A stretch of DNA of 64,000 bases from the NCBI RefSeq assembly GCF_012489685.1, contig NC_080044.1, positions 83,624,732 through 83,688,731 of the forward strand, written 5' to 3'. The DNA is from Lotus japonicus. Lineage: Eukaryota; Streptophyta; Magnoliopsida; Fabales; Fabaceae. This document shows, piece by piece, positions 1-64,000 of this stretch (its first letter is position 1; each line of letters begins with the position of its first letter). A program made the translations under genes and the position numbers. A model generated the notes under the pieces. It had not been told where the DNA came from. It saw only the letters and a list, made by a program, of their open reading frames with translations, and searched no databases.

Positions 1-1196
1 ACTCGACCGAGATCCTGCAACATACCTATCCAGTAGACGGTCGTGTGGTATCCACCGCTCTTGCTAGCAAAGAGCGTCGCGCCTAGCTGGTTCACCAGCC
101 AAATCCGTGCAGCGTCCTCATATCGGTGCTCTACAATGAAATGAATTCAGTTAACAGTTAATAACAATACAATAATAATAGATACTATTTAATCAAGTAA
201 TAATTAAGACATACCCTCCAACGCAGCATCATACAGGGTCTGCAAGACCCCAAAGCGAATAGTCTGGCTCCTGTTCTTATCAAACTCAGCATGATAACGA
301 GCAACAGATCCTCCCATCAACTCAGCACATAGCGCTGCACACTCGTCCCTCTCCCCCCTCCCAGGCGTATAGAACCTCGACCCCATTGGGAGATGGAGAA
401 GAGCCGACACGTCGTCCAGGGTGATGGTCATCTCCCCAAACGGCATGTGGAAGCTACTAGTCTCCTCATGCCATCGCTCCACAAGGGCCAAAATGAGGCC
501 TGCATCTGTCTCCGAGTAGCTGCACCAGGGTAGCTGATGAAGACCCGTCTGCTCAATCAACTCTCGAACCCTCCTGTGACTGTCTGAATCACCATCACAA
601 GCAAGGTTCCAAACCTTCCCCCCAGCTGTGGCCACCCTCAAGTGTCGACGGTCCACATACCGCTCGTCTGTGCGTAGGAGTGCATGCCACGTCCAGGGAG
701 CCTTGTGATCAGCATAATGCGTGAGAAGCGACAGATCAACAGGCCCCCCCGGAAACGGCGGCAACCTCTGGATCAGGTCCTCCTCGCCACCCTGTGCCTC
801 TGGCACGACATCAGCATCAACATCAGGAGGAGGAATACTATCCTCGTCATATGACCCCTCCTCGCCGGATGACTCCTCGTCGGATGACTCATCGCCGGAT
901 GACTCATCGCCGGATGACGACTCGCCTGATGACTCCTCGCCTGCTGACTCATGGCGAGGTACCTCAACCATGGGAGACGGCGGAGTAGGAACTCGATCAG
1001 TAGGCTCAACTGGAGCTGGAGCTGAAGCCTCTACCATGGGCGACTGCATAGAATCAACTGGAGCTGGAGCTGAAGCCTCAACCGCGTGAGAGGTCGCAGC
1101 TTGATCGCCGCGCCGGCTAGAAGCATGTAATCGCCGGTGTCTATCCTCTGTAGGCCCCGCATCCTCACTAGCTCGAGACCTCTTTCTGTTCTTCAT
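1..1196 (-). CDS. Plant mobile domain (PMD/MAIN-like) protein, 3' end outside window
   Basis: Minus-strand gene; exon 1 is 1196-215 and exon 2 runs from 130 off the window edge. The intron 131-214 has GT...AG ends, and joining the exons keeps the frame (…ALE-EHRYEDAARIWLVNQ…). I chose the ATG at 1196; a longer reading from 1202 starts with GTG. The first ~150 residues are low complexity, with Pro/Ala repeats and an acidic Ser/Glu/Asp run (ESSGDESSDEES). From about residue 155 on, the protein matches the plant mobile domain (PF10536; often annotated as 'serine/threonine-protein phosphatase 7 long form homolog' or MAIN-like): WTWHALLRTDERYV, LPWCSYSETDAGLILALVERW, FHMPFGEMTITLDDV, LHLPMGSRFY. 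PMD proteins include Arabidopsis MAIN/MAIL1 and many copies carried by Mutator-like elements. No phosphatase domain is visible. Host gene or transposon-borne copy cannot be decided here. Confidence 0.8.
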
Positions 1197-2347
1197 TCTC
1201 ACTATATATTCAGAGCAAACATTTTCTAAATAAATTCACTGAATAAATTATACTCGCTCAATTACTAAATTTCTCAATTAAATCTCTAAATAAAATCACT
1301 AAATAATTCACGATGTTTATAACTAAATTAAAAACATTTTATAAATTAACTAAGCTAATTAGATTAGGTTTTATAAATAAACTAAGCTAATTATATTAAG
1401 TTTTATAAAAACATTTTATAAATTAAGTTTATAACTCTAAACAGACACCAAATACGGAACATTAAGTTTCATATCCAATACGGAACATTAAGTTTCGTAT
1501 CCAATACGGAACATTAAGTTTCATATTGAATACGGAACATTATGTTCCGTATCGAACCAGAGATCCATTAACGACATTGCATGAATGGAACTCGCCCCAA
1601 AGGCCAATTTATACACAATTTCAGCCAACATAACATCTACTTAAGCATAAATCGACTACCCTAGGGTTGCAAGATTCCATAATTCCAAGTTAAATGGTGA
1701 ATTCAAGTTGAAATCCAAACTTACTTACCTCTAGGTTCAATGCAATGAATGGGGAGAATGGGTTTGATGATGGAGACGATGGTACACTTTCCAGATGATG
1801 ATTGAGGCAAGGAGATCGTCGGTCTCGAAGATTGGAGAGCAAGGGTTTGAAATGTTTTGGAGCGCTGAAATGGGTTTTGGAAAAACCCCTGTCATTTACA
1901 TAGTAATATAATACGGAACTTTATATTCCGTATTGAATACGAAATTTAATATTCCGTATTCTTGTAAAGGGGGTTTTTCCGTAATTTCCCCACTTTAAGT
2001 GGGGCGCGGAGCCCCATAGGGGGGCCCCAAACCCAACTCCCATAAGTTAGAGACAAAAATATATTTATCCTATCAGTCATTTCTCAATTTTTTCTTTTCA
2101 AATCGTGGATTCAGGTTGAAAACATTATTCCATGAATCTATGGCTTCAATAGAACTCCAATTGTATAATTTTGATTAGTGATTGGGGGTAAACAATATTG
2201 AAAAAATATGCGATAATATATTTGGAGCAGAAACGACATGGTTATGGATTTTGCATTGGTTATGTGTGGGTGGTGAGGATTGGTGAAAGCTGAGCCCTAG
2301 AAGAAGAAGAAGTGTACATGGAAGAAAGGTAGAAATTGGTTGAAAAG
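1197..2347. other. Intergenic/leader region with 26-bp repeat family
   Basis: Holds no convincing gene. It contains four tandem 26-bp units at 1451-1554 and two related units at 1909-1963. A GC-rich hairpin-like stretch lies near 1998-2030 (GTGGGGC…GCCCCATAG). The short ORF at 2175-2369 has no recognisable content and overlaps the start region of the next gene. Confidence 0.6.
1451..1554. repeat. 26-bp tandem repeat, 4 units
   Basis: Units begin at 1451, 1477, 1503 and 1529, each starting AATACGGAACATTA. The fourth unit carries an inverted palindrome, GGAACATTATGTTCC. Two further diverged copies of the same motif lie at 1909-1963 with ATATTCCGTATT arms, so the motif brackets the probable leader/promoter of the PMD gene. 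A role is not known. Confidence 0.85.
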
Positions 2348-6809: not shown

Positions 6810-8324
6810 CTAAGTAGGTTCATTTCACTGATTTGGTGGCTATGTTGGAATTTGGGCATCGTGGAAGTGGAGAATATAATAAATATCAAAACAAGACAAG
6901 CAGCACTTTTAAAATTTGTAAATATCTATATATTGGTATTTAGTGCTGAGCTAGGTCCTTCCATTGAAGATTTATTTATAGGCTGGGGTTTGGCTTGAAA
7001 GAGTCACTATAAGGTAAAGTATCACCACAATCTTTAATTGAGATATTAATTGTTGGAATTGTGATCAAGTGCTTATACAATACTCTCTTCGTTCCTATAT
7101 ATAAGTCTATTTTACCTAATTCTCTTAGATTAAGAAAAGTAGTTACAAGCAATAAATTTGTAAAAGAATTTATTCACTTTCCTAGACTACCCTTATTTGA
7201 TTTCTTATAAATTTCTCTCTCCAAGTTATTATTTCAAAACCTCATTGTCTCTTTCATATTAAATAATATGATGATAGTTTTGGAAAAAAATAATTAATGC
7301 TCCATTGATATTGTAAATGGTCTTAAATGGTCTTATATTTAGGAACAAGAAAAATACTAAAAAATTGTCTTATAATAAGGAACGGAGGGAGTATTTATCA
7401 AATTCATAATTGATGTTCAACGTTTTTTTTTGGCTTAATTACACTTTTGATCCCTGATGTGAGGCATCTGTGTGACTTTGGTCCCCATTTTTTAAAAATG
7501 CTATTTTGGTCCACCAGAGATCAATTTGTGCAATTTGAATCTTGCCGTCTAGTTGCCGACAGAGTTAGCCTATGTGGAGCTTATTGTTGACATGGATCTG
7601 ACAATTTTCCACAAGGCTGCCACTTCATTCAATAGAAAAATAATAATTAATAAACACAATTAATTCATTTAAGGTTAATTAAACAACATAAAAAAAATTA
7701 AATATAACCCTAAAATAGAAAATTATCAAATCTCAAATTAATCTTTGAATCTTCATCTTCTCCCTTTTCATCTTCTTCCCTCCTTGTCACCTAAATCTCT
7801 CTCTCACCTAAACAACAACTTGTCCCTCTCTCTTAACACACTGAATATCCCATACTCTTTATGTTCCTGATTTTTGTCCCTCTGTTTATGCTCCTTCTTT
7901 CTCACCTGTTTATGTTCCTCGTTGTCTCTGCGTCTCTCTTTCTGAATCTTTGGATTTTGATCGTCGTGAAAGAAGAAGTGGTGGTCTGCGCATATGAGCT
8001 TGTGGTCTGGTGGTTGTGGGTGGCCCGTCTTCTTCTTCTTCTTCCCAAATCCACTATGAAACCCTCCATCAACTCTGACCCTCACATTTATCATATCTAC
8101 ACCTTCAAACCTAGATATACATTGTGACGCATTGTTGTTTTGAGGGAGGAGGGTGTTGAGGTTGAGAGGAGGAGAGAGGAGAGGATGACTGAGCAGAGGG
8201 TGAAGAAGATGATTGGAATATGAGTAATTTGTTTTGAATTTGGTTGGGAAGATTATTTTGAATGTGGTTGGGAAGAAGATGAATCTGAGTGGAAGAAGGA
8301 AAGGGCGAAGAGGTTCTGGATTTA
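6810..8324. other. Intergenic: 3' UTR, Stowaway MITE, TIR-like left end
   Basis: 6810-7080 is probably the 3' UTR of the upstream gene. 7083-7391 is a Stowaway MITE. From about 7432 (GGCTTAATTACACTTTTGATCCC) the DNA looks like the left end of a long-TIR Mutator-like element. It runs up to 8324, where the FAR1-type MULE is inserted. The ORFs at 7804-8346 and 7861-8127 are pyrimidine/purine-rich and not recognisable. Confidence 0.5.
7083..7391. mobile_element. Stowaway-type MITE (Tc1/mariner)
   Basis: Ends are CTCTCTTCGTTCCTATATAT on the left and AAGGAACGGAGGGAG on the right, the classic Stowaway terminus CTCCCTCCGTTCC. It is flanked by TA at 7081-7082 and 7392-7393. Length is 309 bp, AT-rich, with no coding capacity. 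Confidence 0.85.
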
Positions 8325-9313
8325 GGTGCATACTAGGATACCTCAACGTTTACTCAGGTATGATACAGAAATAAGTTAGGGTATGACGTGGACCAATTAG
8401 AAAGGTGCAGGTGGCAAGGAATTTATTTTCAGTTATTTCATTTTTTAATAACCGAAAAAGGGAAAAAGAAATTAAGTTAACCTTAGTTAACCGAAGTTAA
8501 CCCAAGGTGGCAGGTAGTCAGAGTTGAATGACTACTCCACTTTTCCCCTTTCCAAAATTTTCAAAGTTATCTTCCCTTGCATCAGCTTTATCTTCCCGGA
8601 GAAGCTTTACTATTCCCAAACAAAGACCAAGCTCAGTGCAACTCCGCCGGTCCTTTCTCCTCTGAACTTCAAGGTACCGCTTAGTGTTTTGTCTCACTCT
8701 TTCCCTCTCTTCCTCCTTTGTCGTTACGTTTTTCAGTTTCAGTTTAAGTTTTCCGTTTTGTCTCTGATGTCGGTTTCCATTTACTTGTCGTTTTAATCGT
8801 TTGGTTTTTTGTTTTGTTTACATGCTTTGGTGCGTGTTCGTGTCTTGTTCGTGAAGGGTGGTAAAGCACGATCCTTTTGTCGCTTCTCTTTCATTATCTG
8901 ACGACTGTCACAAGGTTAGTTATTTTCTGTGTTCTGAGTGTTGATGTTAGGGATTTTAGGGATTTTGTGTTGCATGTTGATATTGTTGCGGTGTTTGGCC
9001 ATGAGTTTAGTGTTTGAGGTTTTGTTTTTCGATTATTGGGTTAATCCAATCTTTGTTGATATGGGGTTTGATCTGGTGTTAATGTTGGCATACCCTAAAA
9101 ATTTTTTTGATCTGGGATAGGGTTTGTGGTTGGTAATCTCTTTGAGTTTTCTCTGTTGTTTTTTGGTTGAGGTTTTTCTTTGTTGTAGATGTTGTTTACA
9201 GTTATGACATATGTGGCTCAATGGTAATGTGTATGACATATGCTTGTGGATAATTTTTTGATTCATAATTTTTTAGGTGATTTAATATACCTAAATTTTT
9301 TTATTGTGAAGCA

Positions 9314-10321
9314 ATGGATCCCTGTGGTTGTTCCTCTCGTAGAAATGCCCCAATGTTTTCAATCCCTATAATTCTGGGAGATTTTAACATGAGATTGCCA
9401 AAGGTTTTTTATGAAAGTAAGAAAAACGAAATTAAGAATGAGGTGCAGCTGACTGATCCTATGGGAAACTGTTTGAAGTTGAAAGTTTTGGTGGGGCCGT
9501 CTGGAGGGATTCTTTTTGAGGCTATTCCTATATTGGTTTCATTTTATGGTCTTCAAAAAGATCATGATATGGTTTTCATACATGAAGGGGGGAATAGGTT
9601 CAAAGTTGAAATTTATGATGAAAATAAAAAGCATTTCCCGTATCCAAATTATAGTGAAAAAGTGAAGAACAAAACACCAACCCATTCCCCTTCTCCAAAA
9701 CCCCCAACCCCAGAGGTTATATACTTGAGTTCTGACAATGATGAAGAGGTTGTGGTTGTGGCTGAGGAAGAGCTTGTTCATGAGGAGGAGGTTATGGCTG
9801 AGGAAGAGCTTGTTCATGAGGAGGAGGTTGTGGCTGCTGAAGAGGTTGTGGCTGCGTAAGAAGTTGCTGCACCTGGCCAACCTCAAAATGGAATTCAGAC
9901 CTTTGAGAAGAATGTGACTAGTTCTCTTGCTAGTGGTGGTCAGACTGTGGTAAGCATCGATGTTTGTATTTTTTTAGATAGATGCTTGTAGTATATGTAT
10001 ATGTCTCTCTAATGCAACTTTTTACTTTATTTTTTTCAGGCATTGCCACGGTCATATGTCCGTGTCCACCTTAGAGAGAACTGGCAATGTGTTTTATTGA
10101 AGAATGAAGGGGATGAAGAGTGGTACATTTGCAAGCTCTATTGGAGGAAGAGGAATGGAAGAATTACCGATTGCCATCTTGGCGATGGGTTTTACAAGTT
10201 TGTCACTGACAACTCTTTAGCCGAACACGACCGGCTGTTTTTCAGAACTGTTAATGGGTCCAATAACATTCTGCATGTTAGGATTGAGCTCCATAATGGC
10301 AATGGTGCCAATGGCAATTAG
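9314..10321 (+). pseudogene. Two-B3-domain gene with an in-frame stop between the domains
   Basis: Exon 1 is 9314-9949 and exon 2 is 10040-10321 (intron GTAAGC…TTCAG, phase 0). Domain 1 (residues ~18-95) has the B3/REM pattern: ILGDFNMRLPKVFYES…, LKLKVLVGPSGGILFE, FYGLQKDHDMVFIHEGGNRF. An acidic linker with EELVHEEEV repeats follows. Domain 2 (exon 2) reads LPRSYVRVHL…EWYICKLYWRK…HLGDGFYKFVTDNSLAEHDRL. The frame is broken by TAA at 9857-9859, yet it stays open on both sides: 30 codons from the stop to the donor, then exon 2. Without the stop the product would be about 305 aa. B3 proteins bind DNA. Noncoding leader exons probably lie at ~8530-8920. The gene lies inside the MULE, next to its left end, so it is probably element-encoded. 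Confidence 0.75.
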
Positions 10322-10477
10322 ATTAGTAGTTTTGTGGCCATGATTTCATGTTGAGGACAAATGATGTTTTCTATTGCACTGCTTATGTTTAGCGCTGGTT
10401 GAATAAGCTTTGCTTAAAATAAGTTTTATATTTTACTGCTTATGCTTATGCTTAATATTTGTTTTGTAGTTAAAGAA

Positions 10478-10988
10478 ATGGCCTCCCAATCCTTTACTTC
10501 CCCTAGATCTGGAAATTTTGTTAATGATGGAAGGCGTTGCAAGTGTGGTGTTTATCCGACCCTTAAGACGTCATGGACTAAGTTCAACTATGGGCGCACT
10601 TTTTATCAATGCCCTACTGGGGTAAATAAACTAAACCTAAACTAATTGGTGTGAAATATACTGTGTTATTCCTAATTCTTGATCTTAGTTTAAGTTCAAT
10701 GTGTAGGGGTGCAATTATTTTGATTGGGCTGAAGGTCCTACTCAAGCTGTGGATGAAGTACCTCAAATGAACCATTCTACTGTGAGTAATTCACGAAGTA
10801 ACATGGAGACCACTGCTGCTCAGATTGAGGAAGCCACTTTTAAAGTTTTGCTAGCTGATGCAAGGAGGAGGGAGGAAGCTTATGAGCAGGTTATTAGGGG
10901 CACTTGGGTGTTTGTTTTGGTTTGTATTGTGCTTGTGATTGTTGCAATAGCTTTTGCAAGCAAAATGGTTAGCCTTGGTGGAAGGTAG
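10478..10988 (+). CDS. GRF zinc-finger protein with C-terminal membrane segment
   Basis: Exon 1 is 10478-10621 and exon 2 is 10707-10988 (GT-AG, phase 0), giving 141 aa. The GRF zinc finger (zf-GRF, PF06839) reads RRCKCGVYPTLKTSWTKFNYGRTFYQCP and continues across the splice with GGCNYFDWAEG, so the four Cys ligands are split between exons. After a polar linker (ATFKVLLADARRREEAYEQV) comes one strongly hydrophobic segment, VFVLVCIVLVIVAIAFA, near the C-terminus, then KMVSLGGR and stop. The layout matches the common plant 'At4g04775-like' GRF proteins. It starts 157 bp after the B3 gene on the same strand and inside the MULE. Its last codons form the beginning of the 137-bp minisatellite. The frame is intact. 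GRF fingers bind nucleic acids in other proteins; the role here is unknown. Confidence 0.8.
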
Positions 10989-13118
10989 CTCTAAGAGAGT
11001 GAGAATAGGGATGCACACCGCCCTTGACCTAAGTATAAGAGCTCACGGATGCACACTCGATTCGGTCCACCTACGCCATCGGGAACCCTAATCAGTCACT
11101 AAAGGTTAGCCTTGGTGAAAGGTAGCCCTAAGAGAGTGAGATTAGGGATGCACGCCGCCCTTGACCTAAGTATAAGAGCTCACGGATGCACACTCGATTC
11201 GGTCCACCTACGCCATCGGGAACCCTAATCAGTCACTAAAGGTTAGCCTTGGTGGAAGGTAGCCCTAAGAGAGTGAGATTAGGGATGCACGCTGCTCTTG
11301 ACCTAATTATAAGAGCTCACGGATGCACACTCGATTCGGTCCACCTACGCCATCGGGAACCCTAATCAGTCACTAAAGGTTAGCCTTGGTGGAAGGTAGC
11401 CCTAAGAGAGTGAGATTAGGGATGCAGGCCGCCCTTGACCTAAGTATAAGAGCTCACGGATGCACACTCAATTCGGTCCACCTACGCCATCGGGAACCCA
11501 AATCAGTCACTAAAGGTTAGCCTTGGTGGAAGGTAGCCCTAAGATAGTGAGATTAGGGATGCACGCCGCTCTTGACCTAAGTATAAGAGCTCACGGATGC
11601 ACACTCGATTCGGTCCACCTACGCCATCGGGAACCCTAATCAGTCACTAAAGGTTAGCCTTGGTGGAAGGTAGCTCTAAGAGAGTGAGATTAGGGATGCA
11701 CGCCGCCCTTGACCTAAGTATAAGAGCTCACAGATGCACACTCGATTCGGTCCACCTACGCCATCGGGAACCCTAATCAGTCACTAAAGGTTAGCCTTGG
11801 TGGAAGGTAGCCCTAAGAGAGTGAGATTAGGGATGCACGCCGCCCTTGACCTAAGTATAAGAGCTCACGGATGCACACTCGATTCGGTCCACCTACGCCA
11901 TCGGGAACCTTAATCAGTCACTAAAGGTTAGCCTTGGTGGAAGGTAGCCCTAAGAGAGTGAGATTAGGGATGCACGCCGCCCTTGACCTAAGTATAAGAG
12001 CTCACGGATGCACACTCGATTCGGTCCACCTACGCCATCGGGAACCCTAATCAGTCACTAAAGGTTAGCCTTGGTGGAAGGTAGCCCTAAGAGAGTGAGA
12101 TTAGGGATGCACGCTGCTCTTGACCTAATTATAAGAGCTCACGGATGCACACTCGATTCGGTCCACCTACGCCATCGGGAACCCTAATCAGTCACTAAAG
12201 GTTAGCCTTGGTGGAAGGTAGCCCTAAGAGAGTGAGATTAGGGATGCAGGCCGCCCTTGACCTAAGTATAAGAGCTCACGGAGGCACACTCGATTCGGTC
12301 CACCTACGCCATCGGGAACCCTAATCAGTCACTAAAGGTTAGCCTTGGTGGAAGGTAGCCCTAAGATAGTGAGATTAGGGATGCACGCCGCCCTTGACCT
12401 AAGTATAAGAGCTCACGGATGCACACTCGATTCGGTCCACCTACGCCATCGGGAACCCTAATCAGTCACTAAAGGTTAGCCTTGGTGGAAGGTAGCTCTA
12501 AGAGAGTGAGATTAGGGATGCACGCCGCCCTTGACCTAAGTATAAGAGCTCACGGATGCACACTCGATTCGGTCCACCTACGCCATCGGGAACCCTAATC
12601 AGTCACTAAAGGTTAGCCTTGGTGGAAGGTAGCCCTAAGAGAGTGAGATTAGGGATGCACGCCGCTCTTGACCTAAGTATAAGAGCTCACGGATGCACAC
12701 TCGATTCGGTCCACCTACGCCATCGGGAACCCTAATCAGTCACTAAAGGTTAGCCTTGGTGGAAGGTAGCCCTAAGATAGTGAGATTAGGGATGCACGCC
12801 GCTCTTGACCTAAGTATAAGAGCTCACTGATGCACACTCGATTCGGTCCACCTACGCCATCGGGAACCCTAATCAGTCACTAAAGGTTAGCCTTGGTGGA
12901 AGGTAGCCCTAAGAGAGTGAGATTAGGGATGCACGCCGCTCTTGACCTAAGTATAAGAGCTCACGGATGCACACTCGATTCGGTCCACCTACGCCATCGG
13001 GAACCCTAATCAGTCACTAAAGGTTAGCCTTGGTGGAAGGTAGCCCTAAGAGAGTGAGATTAGGGATGCACGCCGCTCTTGACCTAAGTATAAGAGCTCA
13101 CGGATGCACACTCGATTC
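10967..13118. repeat. 137-bp minisatellite, 15.7 units
   Basis: Units start every 137 bp at 10967, 11104, 11241 … 13022; the last is cut after 97 bp. Each starts GGTTAGCCTTGG and contains CGATTCGGTCCACCTACGCC and GGGAACCCTAATCAGTCAC. Units are ~95-99% alike. 137 is not a multiple of 3 and the array has no long ORF, so it is noncoding. The first unit overlaps the 3' end of the GRF gene (stop at 10986-10988). Unit variants show a 6-unit (822 bp) block duplication. Confidence 0.97.
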
Positions 13119-13830
13119 TTATTCCAGTTAATTGCTAAGTTAATAAGTATTAATTTAAATGCATTGAATAACGATAAATGTGGCTGGCCCTAGTGGTAAA
13201 TGCAATGTCTTTTAAGTCCCATGACATGGGTTCGAATCCCATTGGGTCATTGTGTGTATTTTTTTTTCAAATCAATTTTTATTCCAGTTAATTGCTAAGT
13301 TAATAAGTATTATTTAAATGCATTGAATAGCAACAAATGTGGCTGGCCCTGGTGGTAAATGCAATGTCTTTTAAGTCCCATGACCCGGGTTCGAATCCCA
13401 TTGAGTCATTGTGTGTATTTTTTTTTCAAATCAATTTTTATTCCATTTAATAGCGTAGTTAATAAGTATAAGTTAAATGCATTGAATAACGACAAATGTG
13501 GCTGGCCCTAGTGGTAAATGCAATGTCTTTTAAGTCCCATGACCCGGGTTCGAATCCCATTGGGTCATTGTGTATATTTTTTTTTCAAATCATTTTTTAT
13601 TCCAGTTAATAGCGCAGTTAATAAGTATAATTTATAAATGCATTGAATAGCAACAAATGTGGCTTGCCTTGATGGTAAATGTAATGTCTTTTAAGTCCCA
13701 TGACCCGGGTTCGAATCCCATTGAGTCATTGTGTGTATTTTTTTTTCATATCAATTTTTATTCCAGTTAATAGCGTAGTTAAAGGCACCTAAGTTAATGC
13801 ATTGAATAACAACAAATATGGCTGGGACCA
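13119..13830 (+). repeat. Tandem array of ~159-bp tRNA-like (SINE-like) units, 4.4 copies
   Basis: Units begin ATTCCAGTTAATTGC at 13121, 13281, 13440, 13599 and 13760 (partial). Each full unit has a box-A-like TGGCCCTAGTGGTAAATG and, ~40 bp later, a box-B GGGTTCGAATCCC, then GTCATTGTGTGTATTTTTTTTTC. The spacing fits an RNA polymerase III type-2 promoter of a tRNA-derived SINE, and the T run could end transcription. The 5' and 3' flanks do not pair as an acceptor stem, so these are not working tRNA genes. The array abuts the minisatellite. Confidence 0.85.
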
Positions 13831-13975
13831 ACAGAACACAGTGCAAATTAATTAAAGTGTATGCTATTAGGTATCAACATTTCCATTAATCAATCCAAAA
13901 ACTACCACAACCTAAACTACAGTCTATCAAAGTGTCTTCACCATCTACTCCTCCGCATCATCATCCCCAACAACA

Positions 13976-16818
13976 TCAATCTTCTCCACTGCTATCGCTA
14001 ACATAAATGCGTGCAGCCTTGGCCTTCCGCTCAACTTCATTTAAGCAACCCACAAACTGTGTCACAACAATAGTTTAGTTACAAAATCTGAAAACATAAT
14101 CTTGGCAGACAAAATTTAATCCCTTTCAAGAACACATTCACACTTACAGTTGGGACTTGTGTAGAAGATCCAGGTTCACATATGCGAATCCCAGGGTATG
14201 ATGGAAAAGTGAACCCATCCATGATGTTCATTCCAGGATGAAAATACTCCTGGGTCAAAGGAGTCATAAAAGGATAATTCAAATCTTGAGAACAAGCTTC
14301 ATTAACACTCTGATCCTGTAAAACAAAGTTAAATCTAAAATGCTCATGGACATGTACTGATCAAAAATGAATGACACAAAGATGGCCCACAAGGATAATA
14401 CCTTGCCTTTGCCTTTTCCAGCATCTTCAAGTGAGGAGACTCCAGGCATAGTTACATTATATGGCAATACCTCATCAACCTACACACACAAATTAATTTT
14501 AAATCACTACTAAACTGAAACAAGTAGAATAAAATATTATAGTTTAAGAACTCCAAATGTATGCTAACATCATCAAGCTCCACAGATGAATCACTCATAG
14601 CAGTGTCGTGGGAACCAACTCCTTGACCTTCACGCATTTCCGGGCATGTGCGAATTGTATGACCAGGCATTCTGCATCTTGAGCATAACCTTGTCTTCTT
14701 CCCACCTTTCTTCTTGCGCCCCTTTGTGATCACCACAGCGGGATCACCAATCAAGAATGGTCCAGTGCGGATGGTTTTGTTTCCCACCCTACGCTTTTGA
14801 ACACTGTCAGCCAACTTATATATGTCCTGCAAGACTTGAGAGAAATCATTCACATTCTCACAAGCTATTTCACTTAGTATGTTGCAAGCAGCAGAAAGCA
14901 CACCCCTCCTTAACATCGCCAATTTCTTTGAATCATTGCCAGTAACAGTGTCATTAATCTGATTCATGTAGTCCACCTTAGCCGTCCTTGACCACCGTTT
15001 ACAAATAAGACTATCAGGAACTTCAGCCAGTCTCTCATTTCTTATTGCACATATCATGTGAGAACAAGGAATTCCATAATACTCAAAGTGACCACAATCA
15101 CACACAAACTTTGAAGAATTCTTGTCATATAACACCACATACTCACGCCTTTCATACAAAGCCTTGTTCATCTTCACCATCACCACATCATTGACCTCAG
15201 TCCTTTGGATAATATTTAAGCCACCCACATATTGAATCTGAGTTTTAACTTCATTGAACATGCTCCTTGTCAATTTCTGGGAGAAACCTCGCTCAATATA
15301 ACCAAGGGAAGTAGTGTGCAAAGGTTCTGTATACATTGTGTTAAAATCAGCAACTAACTCATTGTGTCGGTACTCCTTCACAGCCCTCTCAAAATTATGA
15401 ATGAAATCAATCAAACTGTTTTTACATTAAACATAGCTCTTGATGAATGAACTGATCCCTTCACACATTGACGTGGTTCTTATGCCTGCAAAGAATTTGT
15501 CCCTCATAAATGCAGTTGCCCACATTTCTTTCATCCCATACATTCTTGTCAACCACTCATCATCACCAAATCCATACTTCTCCATAACCTTAGCCCAAAC
15601 ATGGTCAAATCTATCCGGATTGAAGTTGCCATAAATCAGAACTTTAAAATCATCCAAAAAGTCTGAATTCTTAAGTTTCTGTAGCGCTTTTTGTTGAATA
15701 TGCCAACCACACAACCTGTGACGGGCATTAGGAAAGACACAACTTATTGCTTCTTTCATTGCTAAATCACCATCTGTAACAACACCTTTCGGGTGCTTCT
15801 GAAACATACACTCAGCAAATGTCTCCAAAACCCACTTATAAGTCTCGATCGACTCATCCGTAACCAAAGCACAAGCAAAAACTGTTGTCTGCCCATGATG
15901 ATTGTAGCCACAGAAAATCACAAGAGGCTTATTATACTTGTTCCTCTTATAGGTGCTGTCAAAGGCAATTACATCGCCAAAAGCATGGTAATCCACTCTG
16001 CTCACTCCATCACTCCAAAATAAGTCTTTGAGATTTTCATCTTCAGTTTTAGTATACTTGGAGAAAAACATTGGATCACCCTCAGCCTTAGCCTGAAAAT
16101 ATGACAAAGCAGCAACTGCATCTCCGTTTCCTACCCTTATCCGCTTCTCCTTATCAATGTGATTGAACAGATCCTTCTTCGTAAAACCCAATGCCTCATG
16201 ACTACCTTTCTGCCCCAGCATCAAGCCCATTATGTTGCAAGTCTTCACCCCATGTAGCTTAAGGCTATTGATCTGAGCCTTGTCAGAATCATTGAGGTGC
16301 CGAAAGGAAGAAATCAAGTGGACTTTATCCACAGGTGCCAGAACATGGTTGTGATTCCTGACAAAGTAAGCAACTTTCCACTTACCTGAGTTGCTTTCAA
16401 AGCGAACACGGAAGCGAGCTGGACATGACACCCTGGTAATTCCCTTTGAAACTCTAACCCGGTCCCTCTGCTGCAAGTATTTTCTATGCCTCACCCCCTC
16501 TTTGCTGCATACCAGTTGACGAGTAACAATGTAACCGTTAGCAGAACGATAGATATTGTCTTTCCTTACACCAAAACCATAACACTGACCATATCTTTCA
16601 TAGAACTTAATCGCATCCTCTTCAGAATCAAATTCCATACCCATTATATCATCTTCTGTCAAATCTAATATGCTCTTCTCATACACAGCACCATCATCGT
16701 ACTCATCCTCCACTCCAGTAGAACCACCATTTTCCTCAGATAATTCATGCCCATTGTTACTTAAACTGACATGGGCTTCTTCCTCTCCATTTTCACCAGA
16801 TTGTACATTACTTTCCAT
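13976..16818 (-). pseudogene. FAR1/FRS-type MULE transposase gene with one in-frame stop
   Basis: Exons on the minus strand: 16818-14569, 14479-14402, 14315-14148, 14056-13976, all GT-AG and phase 0; 858 aa if read through. Order: acidic N-terminus; FAR1 DNA-binding domain (~70-160: MEFDSEEDAIKFYERYG, CPARFRVRF, HNHVLAP); MULE transposase core with DDE-type acids (VIAFDSTYK, KGVVTDGD, then E in TTSMCEGISSF) and the CGWHIQQKA signature; SWIM zinc finger (CDCGHFEYYGIPCSHM, ~578-595); CCHC knuckle (CSRCRMPGHTIRTC, ~711-724). TAA at 15429-15427 interrupts the frame right after FIKSYV. The frame then continues at once (CKNSLIDFIHNFERAV), with no plausible intron. It is the transposase of the surrounding MULE; its ATG lies ~410 bp inside the right TSD. 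The stop makes this copy probably inactive unless read through. Confidence 0.88.
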
Positions 16819-17455
16819 TACCTAACCAACTTCAGAATGGTACATTTTCATATCCAAAAAATCGAAGCTATACTAAATCAACACAACAAACACAACCTAA
16901 ATTCACCATTTGAGAAAGGCCTAAACTTGAAAAACCCATAAATCGAAAGAAACACACACAAATACTAAATAAAGAGGAGAAGGACTTACAGTAACACAAA
17001 ACAAGAGCTTAGAACCCTAAATGTCGAATTCCGAAAGAAACTCACAAACAAACACTTCAAATAGCTTCAGGAGCTAACCAACAAGCCTTCGCTGCTTACA
17101 GTGGAGCCTTCGCCGCCGTTGTCGCCTTCACTGCCATAATCGCCTTCACCGCCGTGCACTCTTTGTTCTGCTCCCTCCAAAGGTGACAACCCACTTCAAT
17201 TTCCCTCTCAGAAATTCAAAGCCTCGAAATGTGTTAACCACAGGGGGACCCACATGGGTTCACTAACCTTAACTCATCTTGGATATAATAATAATGAATA
17301 ATAAATATGTCTTTTTCTTATATTTTTGGAAAATGTTAAAAATTGAAACAAATATTTAAATACGGTACCAGGTGTCGATCCCCCATTGGTACACGTTATA
17401 ACTCGTCAGTCGTGTATCATACATTGGGGGTATGGTAGAATCCGCCCTGGATTTA

Positions 17456-51707: not shown

Positions 51708-54700
51708 TCAAATTTTCATCTTGCCTTGCAAATCCATATCACGATAGATGTGCCATTTTTTGTATCTCTGATCTCCATTTAAAACAGGTCTAAGCCGAGG
51801 AGCAGTAGTGCAAGTTGCACAACAACATCCGCTTAGATCCTTTGCACATTCTCTGCAGCATCTGCAAGACAATGATTAACATGCATGGCATGAATGAATC
51901 ATATTTCAAATTGAGAGCAAACTGTAAATCACCATGCAAAAATACAGGATAAGTCTATTTAAAATAACAGGCATGAAACAGAGAAAGGCGACTTACAAAA
52001 AAAGTAAATTACAGTCAAGATTTGCACAGTTCCTATGTCTCAACTCACTGACTTGCATATTACATATGTAACATTTTGCGAATCTATCATCTCCAGAAAC
52101 TGGAGTCGCCTCTGCTTCAGCTGTGGCCCAGGCATAGTAAACAGGAGGAGGGAGAGACAGACGGGAGTCAAATACAAATAAATTTCCTACCCATTCTGCA
52201 GGGCCTTCACTCTTTAAATAGTGAGAAACACCTCCCTTGAGGGTATACAAATTCTGAAATCCCTGCTGCCTGCCATATCGGATCAAAGTTTCAATGCACT
52301 TATTATTAGAATTAGGGAGATCTAACTCAACCCAAAAGCTAGCTTAAGAGTTGAGGGTTGCTCTACCCTTTATAAAAACTTGTTTGATCATATCTCTAAC
52401 CAATGTGGGACTTCTAATACTTATAATAAAATGATTAATGCTAATGTGTTATCATATTTTTACCATCTAGAAGTTAAATATTTTGTTTTTTTCAATAATT
52501 TTGTTTTTACCATCTAGAAGTTAAGTAATTTTAGAAAGTAATGATTGAATTTGAAAGGTAGTGCAATGTTTGCGAAATATGTTGTGAAAAATAAGATGGG
52601 CTCAAAGAGTCAGGTGGGCCAGTCTTTGTTGGAGTTAGTTGGTTAGCGCCCCGACATGGGGAGGAAAGATATAGGGGGAGAGAATGCAAGTGAGGGCAGT
52701 TGCTGGTAAGTCAGTTATAGGTGGGAGAGACCACGCTCTCAATTTCCTAGGGTACAACATGATGCAAAAAACTGAGATTTTCTAGGGCAATTGCTGGTTA
52801 ATCAGTTATATGTCACCTAAAGGAAGGAGCTTCCATACCCAACATAAGCGTAACCTCACTATCAGAAATCTGATATTGAAAAAATGGTAGCTGAAATTTT
52901 AGAAGCTGAGATAATTAGGCCTTTTAATAGTCCATATTCAAGCCCTATCATATTGGTTAGAAAAAAAAGATATGAGTTGGATGTTATGTGTGGATTATGG
53001 GGCTTTGAATAAAATCACTATACCTGATAAATTTATTATTCACAGTTATAGATGAATTGTTGAATGAGATAGGGGGTAAGGATATTTTGAAAATTGGATT
53101 TAAGGTCAGAGTATCACCAATAAGATAGAGAAGACTGCATTTAGGACTCATGGGAGCCACTATGAGTTCTTGGTTTTACCTTTTGGGCTTGCTAATGCCC
53201 CTTCTTCTTTTCGATCCTTAAAGAATTAAGTGTTGAAACCCTTAATAAGAAAGTATGTTTAGTATTTTTTGATGGTATTTTCGAGTATAGCTTGTCTATG
53301 GATGAGCATGAACAACATTTGGGGACTGTTTTGAATCTCTTATAGAAACATGACTTGAAGGTCAATGGAAAAAAATGTACATTTGGCCAGGAAAATTTGG
53401 AGTATTTGGGCCAAATTATTTCTGCACGTGGTGTTTCTGTTGACCCTAAGAAGCTGGAGGCTATGTGGCTACTATCTATTCCCATAGATGTCAAGAGTTT
53501 AAGGGGATTTTTGGGGCTTAGTGGCTATTATAGGAGGTTTGTGCAAGGATATGGCAGGATTCTGTGACCTTTAACTCAGCTGTTGAACAAAGACAATTTT
53601 CAGTAGGGAGCAGATTCCAAAAAGGGGCATTTGATCCGTTGAAGCATGCCAGGACTTCTCTTCGTATATTAGTTGTTCCTGAATTTTTAAAGACCTTAGT
53701 TTTGGAAACTAATGAATCTGGGCATTGGTTGGTGGTTGTCTTGTTACAGGAAGGCAGACCCTTAGCTTTTTGGTGTACTACATTGTCCGACAGAAATCAG
53801 AGACAATATGTCTATGATAGAGACTGATGGCTGTTATGAAGGCAGTGTGGAGGCATTATTTCTTGGGAAATCCCTTTATTATTACAACTGATCAGAGAAG
53901 TCTTAAATTCGTGGCAGATCATAGGTTGTTGGGAGAAGAGCAGTTTAAATGGATCTCTAAGCTTGCAGGTTATGATTTTAAGATTCAGTATAAACCAGGG
54001 AAAGATAATTCAGTAACTAATGCATTGTTCAGGAGGAGTTCTTTTTGTGCTATTTCAGTCATAAAGATGCATGATTTTGAGGAATGGAATATGAGGAGCT
54101 GATGAGGGATGAAAAACTAAATGCATTCCGAAAATTATTCAGGATTTGATTGTAAATCCTGATTCCCATTCATGATATGTTTTGAAGGAATAAAAGCTAT
54201 TTTTTCAGGGCAGATTGGTGTTCTCTAAATCTTCCTCTAGAATTCCTATCATTCTTAAGGAACTCCATTCTTCTCTCATGGGAGGACATTCAGGGGTGTT
54301 GAGAAGTTATAAAAGGATGGCTAATGTGGTTTATTGGGATCGAATGAAGGCTGATATTAAAAAAAATTGTTGTTGCTTGTGATGTTTGTCAAAGAAACAA
54401 GTGTGATAATTTGTCCCCTGCTGGATTACTGGAACCTCTCCCTGTTCCCACACAGGTTTGGGCAGATATTCCTATGGATTTTGTTGGAGGCTTGTCTAAA
54501 TATATGGGAAAGGATACTGTTTTCGTAGTAGTAGACGAGCTTAGACAATATGCCCATTTTATTGCCTTAAGCCATCCTTTCATTGCCACTGGTGTAGCTG
54601 CTGTTTTTCTTCAAGAGATTGTCAGATTTCATGGTTTTCCCTCTTCCAACAGTGATTCAATATTTTTGAGCAATTTTTGGAAGACACTTTTTAAGGCAGA

Positions 54701-60112: not shown

Positions 60113-60428
60113 TGTGTTTGTTATAGTTAGTTAGTATCCAGCTGGCAAGTTAGTTGTTTCTGTTAGTGGCCAGCTGGCAATTTCTGTTAGAGATGCATTC
60201 TGTTAGCATCTGGGAGATAGTATAAATAAAGGGAAGGGGGTAGTTAACGAGAAGTTATTGAGTTAGTAGGTAATTGTGGAGAGACTGGTCTCTCGAACAA
60301 CCAGAGGAAGAACTAGGGTTCATTCCACCATTTCTGTACCTTGAGCTCTGGTTCTCATTGAGAATCTGAGTCTCTATTTTCATTCAAATTCAATCTAGTT
60401 TCAGTTCAGAGTTCTACAGTGTTCATCA
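60113..60428 (+). repeat. 5' LTR of a Ty3/gypsy element
   Basis: Begins TGTGTTTGTTATAG and ends CTACAGTGTTCATCA. Two bases later comes TGGTATCAGAGC (60431-60442), the initiator-Met tRNA primer site. A TATA box (TATAAATA) lies at 60221-60228 and probably starts the genomic RNA. The 3' LTR is outside the window. Confidence 0.85.
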
Positions 60429-60469
60429 ATTGGTATCAGAGCTCCATCCAGGAGCTGTGGTATCGATCT

Positions 60470-63400
60470 ATGGTAGCTAGCAGAATGGAATCTCGAGTTG
60501 ATGCGATCGAGAGGTTTATCGAGGCTATGAATCGCGACAGGGAAGAAGAGCGCAGGAACCGCGACGAAGAACGACGAAATCGAGAGGAAGATCGCAGAGA
60601 GCGTGCGGCGGAGAGAGAGCGTGTAGAGGAGCGACTTCGCACCTTGGAAGCGATTGTAGAATCGCTGTCCAGGAAGTTCGACGGCGAACGCGATGACGGA
60701 GGCAGCGGCGGGCGAGATCGCCGGCAAACAGGGGAAGAGCGAACGGTGAATGGTGGCAGCGTGGGAGGCCAGAGAGTAGAACACGAAGAGGAGAGAACAC
60801 CGCGCACCGAGAATCCGCAAGCGGAGCGGTGGCGGAAGCTTGATATTCCGGTGTTCCAAGGAGAAGAAGATGCGTACAGTTGGATTCAGAAGTTGGAGAG
60901 ATACTTCCGATTGAAGGGAGCGAAAGAGGAAGAGAAGACGCAAGCTATCATGGTGGCTCTTGATGGAAGGGCGTTGAGTTGGTACCAATGGTGGGAGACT
61001 TGTAATCAGGTAACTACGTGGGACAAGTTCAAGGAAGCGTTGCTGGAACGTTTCCAACTCTCATCTGCTTCAAGTCCTTTTGCTGCGTTGCTAGCTCTTA
61101 AGCAAGAAGGAAGTGTAGAGGAATTTGTGGCTCAATTTGAGAGATTTGCAGGCATGTTGCGAGGGGTTGAAGAAGAACACTACATGGACATTTTTGTCAA
61201 TGGACTCAAGGAAGAGATTGCAGCAGAAATCAAGCTCTATGAGCCTAGAACTCTAGCAATCATGGTCAAGAAAGCATTGATGGTGGAACAGAAGAACCTG
61301 GCTGTGAGTAAAGCAGGGGTTGGCAGCATTAGCAGGTACAATTCTTCTTACAAACCACCTTTTAAAGCTTCAACTTATCAGAAAACTGTGACAATTGATA
61401 GTGGACAGAAGAGTGGAGTAGGTAGTGTTGTTCAAAACACAGTACAATCCTCTAGTGGAAGTGTTAGTGATAGAGTAGGGAGCAAGCCAGCAAGGGGAGG
61501 GGTTTTCAAAAGGCTTACTGGGGAAGAAATGAAGGAGAAACTAAGGAAAGGGGAATGTTTTAGGTGTGATGAGAAATTTGGCCCAAACCATGTGTGTAAG
61601 AATAAGCAACTCAGAGTCATGTTGCTGGAGGAGGAAGGTGAGGAAGAAGAAGAGGAGACTATAGAGGCTCAGCCAGAAGATTCAGGAGAAATTATGGAGT
61701 ATAAGCAACTATCACTCAACAGCATACAAGGACTCTCTACCAGGAAATCACTTAAGGTGTGGGGAAAATTGCAGGAAACTACTATTGTTGTGCTCATAGA
61801 TTGTGGAGCAACACACAACTTTATTTCAGCTACTTTGGCAAGAGCTTTGGAACTAAAGATTACTGAAACTTCCTCTTATACAGTGGAAGTTGGAGATGGA
61901 CATAAGGTGCAAGGTAGAGGGGTTTGCAAGAATGTTAGTGTGCAGATCCAAGGGTTCATGGTAACACAAGACTTCTACTTGTTTGGGTTGAGAGGTGTAG
62001 ATGTCGTGCTGGGTTTGGAATGGCTTGCAAGCCTAGGGGATATAAAGGCCAATTTTGAAGAGCTCACCTTGAAGTTCAAGCTGGGGAACAGCAAAGTGGT
62101 ACTCAAGGGTGAACCTGAGCTGTTGAGGAAAGGTGCCTCACTGAATGCAATGGTCAAAGCCATTCAGCAACAGGGTGAGGGGTATGTTCTGCAATGCCAG
62201 ATGTTAGAAAAGGAAGTGGCCCAACCAGAAGACACTCCAGAGTTATTAAAAGCAGTCTTGGCAGATTTTCCAGCATTATTTGCTTCACCAACTGAACTGC
62301 CACCTCAAAGAAGACATGACCATGCAATACATTTGAAGGAAGGGGCATCTATACCTAACATTAGACCCTACAGGTATCCCCATTTTCAGAAAAATGAGAT
62401 AGAAAAATTAGTTGCTGAAATGCTTAATGCAGGCATCATTAGACCAAGTATTAGCCCTTATTCAAGTCCAGTCATATTGGTGAGGAAAAAGGATGGTAGC
62501 TGGAGGTTTTGTGTAGACTATAGGGCCTTGAACAAGGTCACGATCCCCAATAAATTTCCTATCCCAGTTATTGATGAACTATTAGATGAGATTGGTCCAG
62601 CAAAGGTGTTCTCCAAGATAGATCTTAAATCCGGTTACCATCAAATTTTGATGAAGGCTGAAGATGTAGAAAAGACAGCATTTAGGACACACGAGGGGCA
62701 CTATGAGTTTTTGGTGATGCCATTTGGCCTCACCAATGCTCCCTCCACATTTCAGTCCTTAATGAATGAGGTGTTGAGGCCAGTTTTGAGGAAGCATGCA
62801 CTAGTCTTTTTTGATGATATTTTGATCTTTAGCTTGACCATGGAAGACCATGTAGTACACTTGACACAAGTACTGCAGCTAATGGAACAACATGACTTAA
62901 AAATCAATGGCAAGAAGAGTGTGTTTGGAAGAGGGCAAATAGAGTATTTAGGCCATGTTTTGACTGCTGGAGCAGTGGCGGCAGATCCAAAGAAGCTGGA
63001 AGCTATGTGGATGTGGCCAATTCCAAAGGATTTGAAAAGCTTGAGAGGGTTCCTTGGGCTGACTGGATACTATAGAAGGTTTGTTAGAGACTATGGAAAA
63101 ATAGCTAGGCCGTTAACACAGCTCTTGAAGAAAGATAGTTTTCAGTGGGGACCAGGCCCTCAGCAAGCTTTTGAAGCCCTCAAGCAAGCTCTCACTGAAT
63201 TACCCACCCTAGCTGTTCCTGATTTTTCAAAGGTTTTTGTATTAGAAACAGATGCTTCTGGTACAGGGTTGGGAGCAGTGTTGTCTCAGGAAGGAAAGCC
63301 CTTGGCATTTTGGAGTGCTACACTCTCAGATAGGAGCCAAGCTAAGTCAGTATATGAGAGAGAATTAATGGCAGTGGTTAGAGCCGTCCAAAGATGGAGA

Positions 63401-64000
63401 CATTACCTTATGGGGAGGCACTTCATCATTAGGACAGATCAGAAAAGTTTGAAATTTTTGACTGAGCAGAAGGTCTTGGGAGCAGAACAGTTCAAGTGGA
63501 TTTCTAAGCTCTCAGGTTATGATTTTGAAATACAATACAAACCTGGAAAGGACAACTCTGCAGCTGATGCCATGTCTAGGAGAAGTTCTTACTGTGCACT
63601 CTCAGTCCTCAAGGTTAATGACTATGAGGAATGGCAAACTGAAGTGTTACAGGATCCTAAATTGCAAGCAATAGTGCAGGATCTGATTCTGGATCCAGAA
63701 GCTCACAAAGGCTACTCTCTAAGAGACCACAAGCTGTTCTACAAAGGGAAGCTGGTGCTGTCCAAGCAATCCTCTAGGATTCCCATTTTGTGTAAGGAAT
63801 TCCATGCTACCTTGTTGGGGGGGCATTCTGGTTTTTTCAGAACTTATAGGCGGTTGGCTGCAGTGGTCTATTGGGAGGGCATGAAGAAAGACATTAAGGA
63901 CTATGTAGCTGGCTGTGACACTTGCCAGAGGAATAAATTTGACAATTTATCCCCAGCAGGTCTCCTTCAGCCATTGCCAATTCCTACACAAGTATGGACC
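60470..64000 (+). CDS. Ty3/gypsy gag-pol polyprotein, open to the window end
   Basis: The frame from ATG 60470 has no stop through 64000 (1177 codons) and continues outside. Order: Arg/Glu-rich coiled N-terminus; gag (retrotrans_gag; YSWIQKLERYFRLKG, SWYQWWE); CCHC-like knuckle (CFRCDEKFGPNHVC); protease with DCGATHNF in place of the usual D-S/T-G; reverse transcriptase with the VFFDDIL catalytic motif; RNase H (ETDASGTGLGAVLSQEG); integrase HHCC zinc finger (H…H…CDTCQR); then the start of the integrase core. All parts are in one frame with no gap, so this copy may be young. The large minus-strand ORFs at 60401-61057 are shadows. Confidence 0.93.
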   Translation, partial: MVASRMESRVDAIERFIEAMNRDREEERRNRDEERRNREEDRRERAAERERVEERLRTLEAIVESLSRKFDGERDDGGSGGRDRRQTGEERTVNGGSVGGQRVEHEEERTPRTENPQAERWRKLDIPVFQGEEDAYSWIQKLERYFRLKGAKEEEKTQAIMVALDGRALSWYQWWETCNQVTTWDKFKEALLERFQLSSASSPFAALLALKQEGSVEEFVAQFERFAGMLRGVEEEHYMDIFVNGLKEEIAAEIKLYEPRTLAIMVKKALMVEQKNLAVSKAGVGSISRYNSSYKPPFKASTYQKTVTIDSGQKSGVGSVVQNTVQSSSGSVSDRVGSKPARGGVFKRLTGEEMKEKLRKGECFRCDEKFGPNHVCKNKQLRVMLLEEEGEEEEEETIEAQPEDSGEIMEYKQLSLNSIQGLSTRKSLKVWGKLQETTIVVLIDCGATHNFISATLARALELKITETSSYTVEVGDGHKVQGRGVCKNVSVQIQGFMVTQDFYLFGLRGVDVVLGLEWLASLGDIKANFEELTLKFKLGNSKVVLKGEPELLRKGASLNAMVKAIQQQGEGYVLQCQMLEKEVAQPEDTPELLKAVLADFPALFASPTELPPQRRHDHAIHLKEGASIPNIRPYRYPHFQKNEIEKLVAEMLNAGIIRPSISPYSSPVILVRKKDGSWRFCVDYRALNKVTIPNKFPIPVIDELLDEIGPAKVFSKIDLKSGYHQILMKAEDVEKTAFRTHEGHYEFLVMPFGLTNAPSTFQSLMNEVLRPVLRKHALVFFDDILIFSLTMEDHVVHLTQVLQLMEQHDLKINGKKSVFGRGQIEYLGHVLTAGAVAADPKKLEAMWMWPIPKDLKSLRGFLGLTGYYRRFVRDYGKIARPLTQLLKKDSFQWGPGPQQAFEALKQALTELPTLAVPDFSKVFVLETDASGTGLGAVLSQEGKPLAFWSATLSDRSQAKSVYERELMAVVRAVQRWRHYLMGRHFIIRTDQKSLKFLTEQKVLGAEQFKWISKLSGYDFEIQYKPGKDNSAADAMSRRSSYCALSVLKVNDYEEWQTEVLQDPKLQAIVQDLILDPEAHKGYSLRDHKLFYKGKLVLSKQSSRIPILCKEFHATLLGGHSGFFRTYRRLAAVVYWEGMKKDIKDYVAGCDTCQRNKFDNLSPAGLLQPLPIPTQVWT

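Follow-up and report, generated by a model that had tools for sequence, protein, structure and literature searches.

B3 and GRF genes recur opposite the FAR1-type transposase in a family of Mutator-like elements of Lotus japonicus

The 64,000-nucleotide stretch of Lotus japonicus DNA analyzed here (hereafter the window; C4:83624732-83688731 of assembly G000, 553.7 Mb in 65 contigs) contains a Mutator-like element (MULE) of 9,122 bp at positions 8325-17446, in which a B3 gene and a gene for a GRF zinc finger, both on the plus strand, run toward a FAR1-type transposase on the minus strand. A search of the whole assembly showed the transposase to be accompanied by convergent B3 and GRF genes in many members of a large clade. 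The window element is probably one defective copy of a multi-gene family of FAR1-type Mutator-like transposons that has B3 and GRF as its accessory genes, and the two look like standing genes of the element and not stray cargo.

The transposase search gave at least 92 places in this genome; 91 of 1,219 first-look candidates were scored, and the counts for large families are lower bounds, biased to close relatives. The GRF search, in which 150 of 212 candidates were scored, returned 104 matches to the exon; these merged into 84 loci. The B3 search was made with P0002, the B3 gene of an element at C1:78386446-78387501 that is convergent to the 87% identical transposase place C1:78381460 (117 matches, 124 of 182 candidates scored), and with a B3 gene from a second family (129 matches, 129 of 183 scored). 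We used 97 of the former matches and 70 of the latter, the others adjoining these or repeating loci of the first search, and both merged into 83 loci. A gene was counted as a partner when it lay downstream of the transposase, convergent to it and within 45 kb. Among the 64 scored places with at least 55% transposase identity, GRF accompanies 57, B3 accompanies 42 and both accompany 41. Both genes are present at all ten places of 94-100% identity (window included), at three of the five of 83-88% and at all five of 74-75%; the two places with neither are C3:57255820, which is short and has two stops, and L011, a partial match to the element with a distant GRF match upstream. The 44 places of 55-67% identity include 24 with B3, 39 with GRF and 23 with both. 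If the genes were spread uniformly, about 0.007 partners per place would be expected by chance within 45 kb for each. Orientation is constrained, too: only one B3 and no GRF partner lies on the same strand as the transposase, and within 45 kb upstream of the 92 places there is no B3 and a single GRF. Likewise, 53 of the 83 B3 loci have a GRF on the same strand within 3 kb downstream, and none has one upstream. The distance from transposase to GRF ranges from 2.8 to 42.6 kb, and the longest of these distances may include nested insertions or other elements.

The borders of the unit, which the preliminary description had placed at an exact 9-bp repeat, were borne out. The target-site duplication CTGGATTTA at 8316-8324 is identical to that at 17447-17455. 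Just inside it are the terminal inverted repeats GGTGCATACTAGGATACC (8325-8342, plus strand) and GGCGGATTCTACCATACC (17429-17446, minus strand), which are identical at 13 of 18 positions and are followed by two inner blocks in common. The motif GTATGATACA stands 34 bases from the left end (8358-8367, plus strand) and, inverted, 25 bases from the right end (17413-17422, minus strand). The second block, ACGTGKACCAAT, is 62 and 51 bases from the left and right ends, respectively; the motif there is ACGTGGACCAAT on the left (8386-8397, plus strand) and the inverted ACGTGTACCAAT on the right (17385-17396, minus strand). Its spacing to GTATGATACA is 28 bases on the left and 26 on the right, in keeping with the near-equal spacing first described. 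Local alignment of the two 400-base ends scored 77 (maximum of 50 in 300 single-base shuffles), and global alignment of the outer 120 bases scored 81 (maximum of 73 in 500 shuffles). The ends are not among the 25 longest of the 28 pairs given by an inverted-repeat finder for the window, because they are short and imperfect. A transposase with a MULE domain, a duplication within the 8-11 bp range and short, imperfect terminal inverted repeats together identify the unit as a MULE, and Pfam domains on opposite strands confirm the arrangement of B3 and GRF genes against a FAR1-type transposase.

Other copies define the same unit independently. Nine further transposase places are 94-98% identical to that of the window. 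In a blastn comparison of the element with its relatives, the right end was matched to the last base in seven other copies (L003-L009) and to within five bases in L002, L012 and L018; the match to L010 stops 87 bases short of it, that to L011 at base 8416, and those to distant loci earlier. The flanks of L001-L009, L012 and L018 all differ, so that copies with unrelated surroundings share this end. Five of the seven copies whose left ends were fetched (83-98% identity) have an exact 9-bp duplication of their own, with left and right loci paired as L033/L005, L034/L006, L035/L007, L036/L008 and L037/L012. These five also start with the same or nearly the same left end, and the subterminal motifs persist on the left side of other copies. 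By hand arithmetic from the coordinates, the five units measure approximately 12.9, 15.3, 12.0, 23.4 and 9.1 kb.

We scanned for 9-bp repeats with inverted ends in more distant families. For two elements whose transposases are 60-61% identical to that of the window, the top-ranking candidates are TTGTTTTTA (L019/L039) and AAATAAAAT (L022/L040); each matches at 16 of 25 end bases, and the runner-up at 13. Their ends are of one type, GGYNNNTNCTGTGRTGCC, which resembles the window ends, and both elements have B3 and GRF matches inside. The same scan gave no convincing duplication for the 75% element L013/L038. Thus, B3 and GRF genes paired between ends with 9-bp duplications are found in the window, in five of seven copies and in two elements of about 60% identity, and the cargo is not the one-off that the preliminary description had allowed for: both genes recur in further copies that share the transposase and the ends. 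Beside one of the 60%-family elements we noted by eye an HSP70-like open frame (L039, 2521-3600, minus strand).

The transposase gene (13976-16818, minus strand) has 858 codons in four exons (16818-14569, 14479-14402, 14315-14148 and 14056-13976), and all three introns are GT-AG. Of the FAR1-SWIM-CCHC architecture originally read from it, Pfam supports FAR1 (2.2e-20) and SWIM (5e-5) in the minus-strand open reading frames (ORFs), together with MULE (3.1e-29); the CCHC knuckle is weak and below threshold (E=0.078). Codon 464 (15427-15429, minus strand) is an in-frame nonsense codon, past what we take to be the catalytic part, at a site where P0003 and several of the genome copies are open. In a tree of the window transposase with 31 relatives chosen from 114 transposases (host FRS genes unmarked), it is joined first by P0003 and next by proteins exclusively from L. 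japonicus. The Arachis, Cuscuta and Lupinus rows each form a group of their own, as expected for transposons; the Trifolium and Sesbania rows do not. A scan of viral and prokaryote contigs with P0003 gave no relatives.

The B3 gene comprises exon 1 (9314-9949, plus strand), with an N-terminal B3-like domain that is 74% identical to P0002 and an acidic linker, and exon 2 (10040-10321, plus strand), with the C-terminal B3 domain. It had been read as a two-B3 gene, and the second domain stands (Pfam B3, E=2.5e-7). It is the only one called: the first had no Pfam match in the window even at E=10, its counterpart in a distant element gave a weak Pfam B3 match (E=0.014), and profile comparison of the two domains detected no similarity. 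AlphaFold models were too poor to use (mean pLDDT, the model's own confidence measure, 34.0 for the protein and 39.6 for the first domain); fold searches with them returned nothing at E<=0.001, and sequence searches of solved structures nothing credible. A protein search found one B3 and one GRF relative, both from L. japonicus; because the method relies on 5-residue words in common and performs poorly on short, fast-evolving proteins, relatives elsewhere may have escaped it. Codon 182 (9857-9859, plus strand) is an in-frame nonsense codon, and P0002 is open through the linker. With nonsense codons in both transposase and B3, the window copy is defective; it can make neither protein in full, so any movement after this decay would have occurred in trans.

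The GRF gene has two exons and 141 codons. The first (10478-10621, plus strand) encodes the zinc finger (Pfam GRF, E=4.2e-5 on the exon ORF), and the second (10707-10988, plus strand) the end of the finger, a helical region and a single C-terminal transmembrane stretch (mean hydropathy of 3.06 over residues 115-133), as the name finger-membrane gene had implied. The exon alone falls just below the Pfam cut-off, and the whole relative P0001, an L. japonicus protein that is 99% identical to the window protein over 96% of its length, is above it (6.6e-8). Elsewhere in the assembly, eleven GRF matches of 49-52% identity with near-equal scores (for example C1:82631450, C2:76051402 and C6:65381507) have no convergent transposase of this clade, and one of them lies upstream of L011; they are perhaps on another transposon.

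We noticed three candidate splice sites on the plus strand: a 5' site that would end an untranslated leader (CAAG|GTACCG, 8674-8675), an acceptor before the B3 start (9269-9276) and a TGTAG acceptor eight bases before the GRF start (10465-10469). The donor is kept in five of seven copies (L031, L033-L036), being one base short in L032 and weakly aligned in L037; the B3 acceptor is kept in all seven close copies (L031-L037). TGTAG occurs 7-10 bases before the GRF start in all ten other copies that were read (L031-L040), including the elements of about 60% identity. The conservation of these sites suggests a left-end transcript spliced to either gene: a single promoter at the left end would make both messages by joining a common leader to the B3 or the GRF acceptor. 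We give this model of alternative leader splicing an even chance.

Did an ancestor capture host B3 and GRF genes once, to be copied along without benefit in an otherwise autonomous element? Such a Pack-MULE-like history would agree with the known capture of host genes by MULEs (reported in the accessible parts of PMC6446971 and PMC13317346), with the faster evolution of B3 and GRF than of the transposase, and with the existence of relatives that have one gene or neither. We compared the domains of the window copy and L012 by the Nei-Gojobori method, with Fisher tests on back-calculated counts. The ratio of nonsynonymous to synonymous substitution (dN/dS) is 0.26 for the transposase (dN 0.069, dS 0.262; P=3e-12 against neutrality), 0.52 for B3 (dN 0.188, dS 0.363; P=0.005) and 0.55 for GRF (dN 0.159, dS 0.288; P=0.057). 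Other pairs with L012 gave 0.23-0.27, 0.52-0.55 and 0.20-0.50 for transposase, B3 and GRF, respectively, all sharing that one diverged copy. This one deep comparison supports purifying selection on B3, and the GRF value, of borderline significance, points the same way. Passive cargo would be expected to decay over such divergence, so the reading frames, gene order and GRF acceptor kept at about 60% transposase identity count against it, as do the non-neutral substitutions of B3, and we regard it as improbable. Between the helpers and the captured host genes of the preliminary description, we therefore favor standing element genes, on account of their recurrence at about 60% transposase identity, their fixed order and orientation, and dN/dS values below 1; a host origin long ago is possible for both genes.

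Several observations weigh against standing accessory genes. Of the 13 places with 45-53% transposase identity, six have B3 and none has GRF, and the 15 places at 37-41% have neither, which implies that both genes are dispensable in some relatives, unless they have diverged past our queries. L045, which belongs to the 49% group, pairs an open transposase with a convergent B3-like gene of two domains and has no GRF match; L045, L047 and L048 are 98-99% alike as far as a common right end, and the left end of L045 was not found. Within the 55-62% band, 16 GRF-positive places have no B3 that we could find, and none was present in the 3.6 kb read before one such GRF (L041). At these 16 places GRF lies 12.6-42.6 kb from the transposase; these may be elements of very large size that carry a different set of genes. 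Two copies (L031/L002 and L032/L003) have altered left ends and no matching duplication. Finally, the deep dN/dS estimate depends on the single diverged copy L012, and close copies gave 0.62-0.89 for B3 (concatenated pairs, few changes) and up to 1.24 for the transposase, numbers too small to judge.

If B3 and GRF are standing genes, as we favor, they may well be accessory proteins that aid the element, a view to which we lean slightly. The proposed role of the B3 protein is binding to element DNA; GRF, with its zinc finger and C-terminal membrane anchor, could be the partner of B3 at the nuclear or endoplasmic reticulum membrane. Among single tasks, we tentatively rank first an action against host silencing like that of VANC in the VANDAL elements: B3 would bind motifs in interior arrays and remove DNA methylation from the element. 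B3 is generally known as a sequence-specific DNA-binding fold. Between the convergent genes of the window is a tandem array of a 137-bp unit (10964-13118, 15.7 copies, 97% matches), which starts within the last codons of the GRF gene, followed by an array of a 159-bp unit (13115-13825, 4.5 copies). Five of the six copies whose middle was read, window included, have such arrays, and the types differ: nested units of 87-212 bp in L005, units of 146 bp (2.5 copies) and 160 bp (3.3 copies), both window-like, in L007, 49 bp (19.6 copies) in L012 and 100 bp (7.4 copies) in L019. Fast-changing tandem repeats are also the targets of VANC, according to the accessible parts of PMC5735166 and PMC10398659.

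The main result against this VANC-type model is that the arrays and the B3 proteins do not sort together by type. The window unit matches that of L007 (score of 317, maximum of 23 in 200 shuffles), does not match that of L005 (score of 17, reached by 89 of 200 shuffles) and is borderline with that of L012 (score of 20, reached by 8 of 200), whereas L005 and L012 have matching units (score of 48, shuffle maximum of 23). The B3 proteins of the window and L005 are 93% identical with unrelated arrays, whereas those of L005 and L012 are 66% identical with homologous arrays, which speaks against simple coevolution and adds to the points against our reading. The arrays turn over, and not in step with B3. 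In addition, the B3-only element L045 has no large array, Pfam scans of the B3 and GRF ORFs, P0001 and P0002 gave no DUF1985, and the B3-like 5-mer ATGCA, which occurs in the arrays and was entertained as a binding site, had been chosen post hoc and was set aside. CpG depletion was also dropped as a sign of past methylation, since an ordinary host ORF of the window shows stronger depletion (0.18) than the element genes do (0.26-0.37).

Two further features of the arrays may be mentioned. The 137-bp array (10967-13118) is poor in CHG (observed/expected of 0.33, against 0.70-1.20 in 13 other stretches), possibly by chance, one unit being repeated. Four of the 159-bp units have a perfect RNA polymerase III B box (GGTTCGAATCC), and these repeats, with their tRNA-like text, resemble a tandemly amplified short interspersed element; they have no Rfam or ARAGORN match, and the 160-bp repeats of L007 are similar to them.

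The next task in rank, a contribution to end recognition or to integration such as has been suggested for mudrB, seems less likely still. Here B3 would bind the subterminal motifs and assist the transposase in pairing or inserting the ends. Such a role would suit the presence of GTATGATACA and ACGTGKACCAAT at both ends with near-equal spacing, their retention at the left end of other copies, and a layout like that of MuDR. On general grounds, however, end binding may already be provided for by the transposase, through its FAR1 domain and zinc knuckle. Jittery, of the FAR1 group, is moreover described without a mudrB homolog in the accessible parts of PMC6446971 and PMC9569675. A broader proposal, which we consider doubtful although less so than end recognition, is that the clade has its own module of a two-domain B3 and a membrane-anchored GRF, made from one alternatively spliced transcript, which would lift silencing or guide transposition through the fast-changing arrays, independently of VANC.

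Elsewhere in the window, an ORF at 204-1235 (minus strand) contains a plant mobile domain (Pfam PMD, 3.1e-16) and is probably part of another transposon; P0050, a FAR1-MULE relative from Lupinus, has a plant mobile domain as well. At 60362-64000 (plus strand), a long open frame resembles by eye a Ty3-type retrotransposon polyprotein, and 62336-63997 shares 66% DNA identity with 52820-54461.

Extra genes in MULEs are often read as chance captures; here the pair has kept its place, order and frames across a clade of dozens of copies, with both genes at 41 or more places. Should B3 and GRF act on the element, silencing escape could be studied in a second system of plant transposons besides VANDAL. 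A single genome offers the comparison set, with transposase places that have both genes, GRF only, B3 only or neither. The family may also account for some of the plant genes whose annotation says no more than B3-like, GRF-finger or FAR1-related.

We found no published MULE with B3 and GRF genes in the open-licence literature, consistent with the earlier impression that the gene set is not a described class. MULEs with extra, fast-evolving ORFs are known, namely MuDR, VANDAL (PMC5735166, PMC10398659) and Abermu (PMC9168764), as far as the accessible parts of these sources go. Pack-MULEs have host fragments in place of the transposase; here the transposase is present and the genes are recurrent and conserved. 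According to the available portions of PMC6446971 and PMC9569675, Jittery-type FAR1 MULEs share the N-terminal FAR1, the MULE domain, a C-terminal SWIM or CCHC (here SWIM) and 8- or 9-bp duplications. They differ in having a single ORF, as tabulated for the Jittery group (group 36) in PMC6446971, whereas B3 and GRF lie between the same ends here, in units of about 9-23 kb. Maize MuDR likewise has a further gene convergent to the transposase and 9-bp duplications, and the parallel drawn in the preliminary description holds for this layout and goes no further: MuDR has one further gene, mudrB, and the present family has two, with a FAR1-type transposase. VANDAL elements with VANC in Arabidopsis resemble it in their faster-evolving accessory genes beside the transposase and in interior repeats that turn over (PMC5735166 and PMC10398659, in the parts available), but their terminal inverted repeats are degenerate or absent and VANC has DUF1985, whereas here there are terminal inverted repeats, a B3 and a GRF-transmembrane protein, and the type of repeat does not go with the type of accessory protein. 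Abermu, a MULE of barley and others, is longer than 8 kb and has three ORFs, one of them on the opposite strand and faster-evolving than the transposase. In the available text of PMC9168764, it is closest to MuDR, its ORF2 is co-directional with the transposase and its extra ORFs are of unknown function, whereas in the family described here both extra genes oppose the transposase and have known domains.

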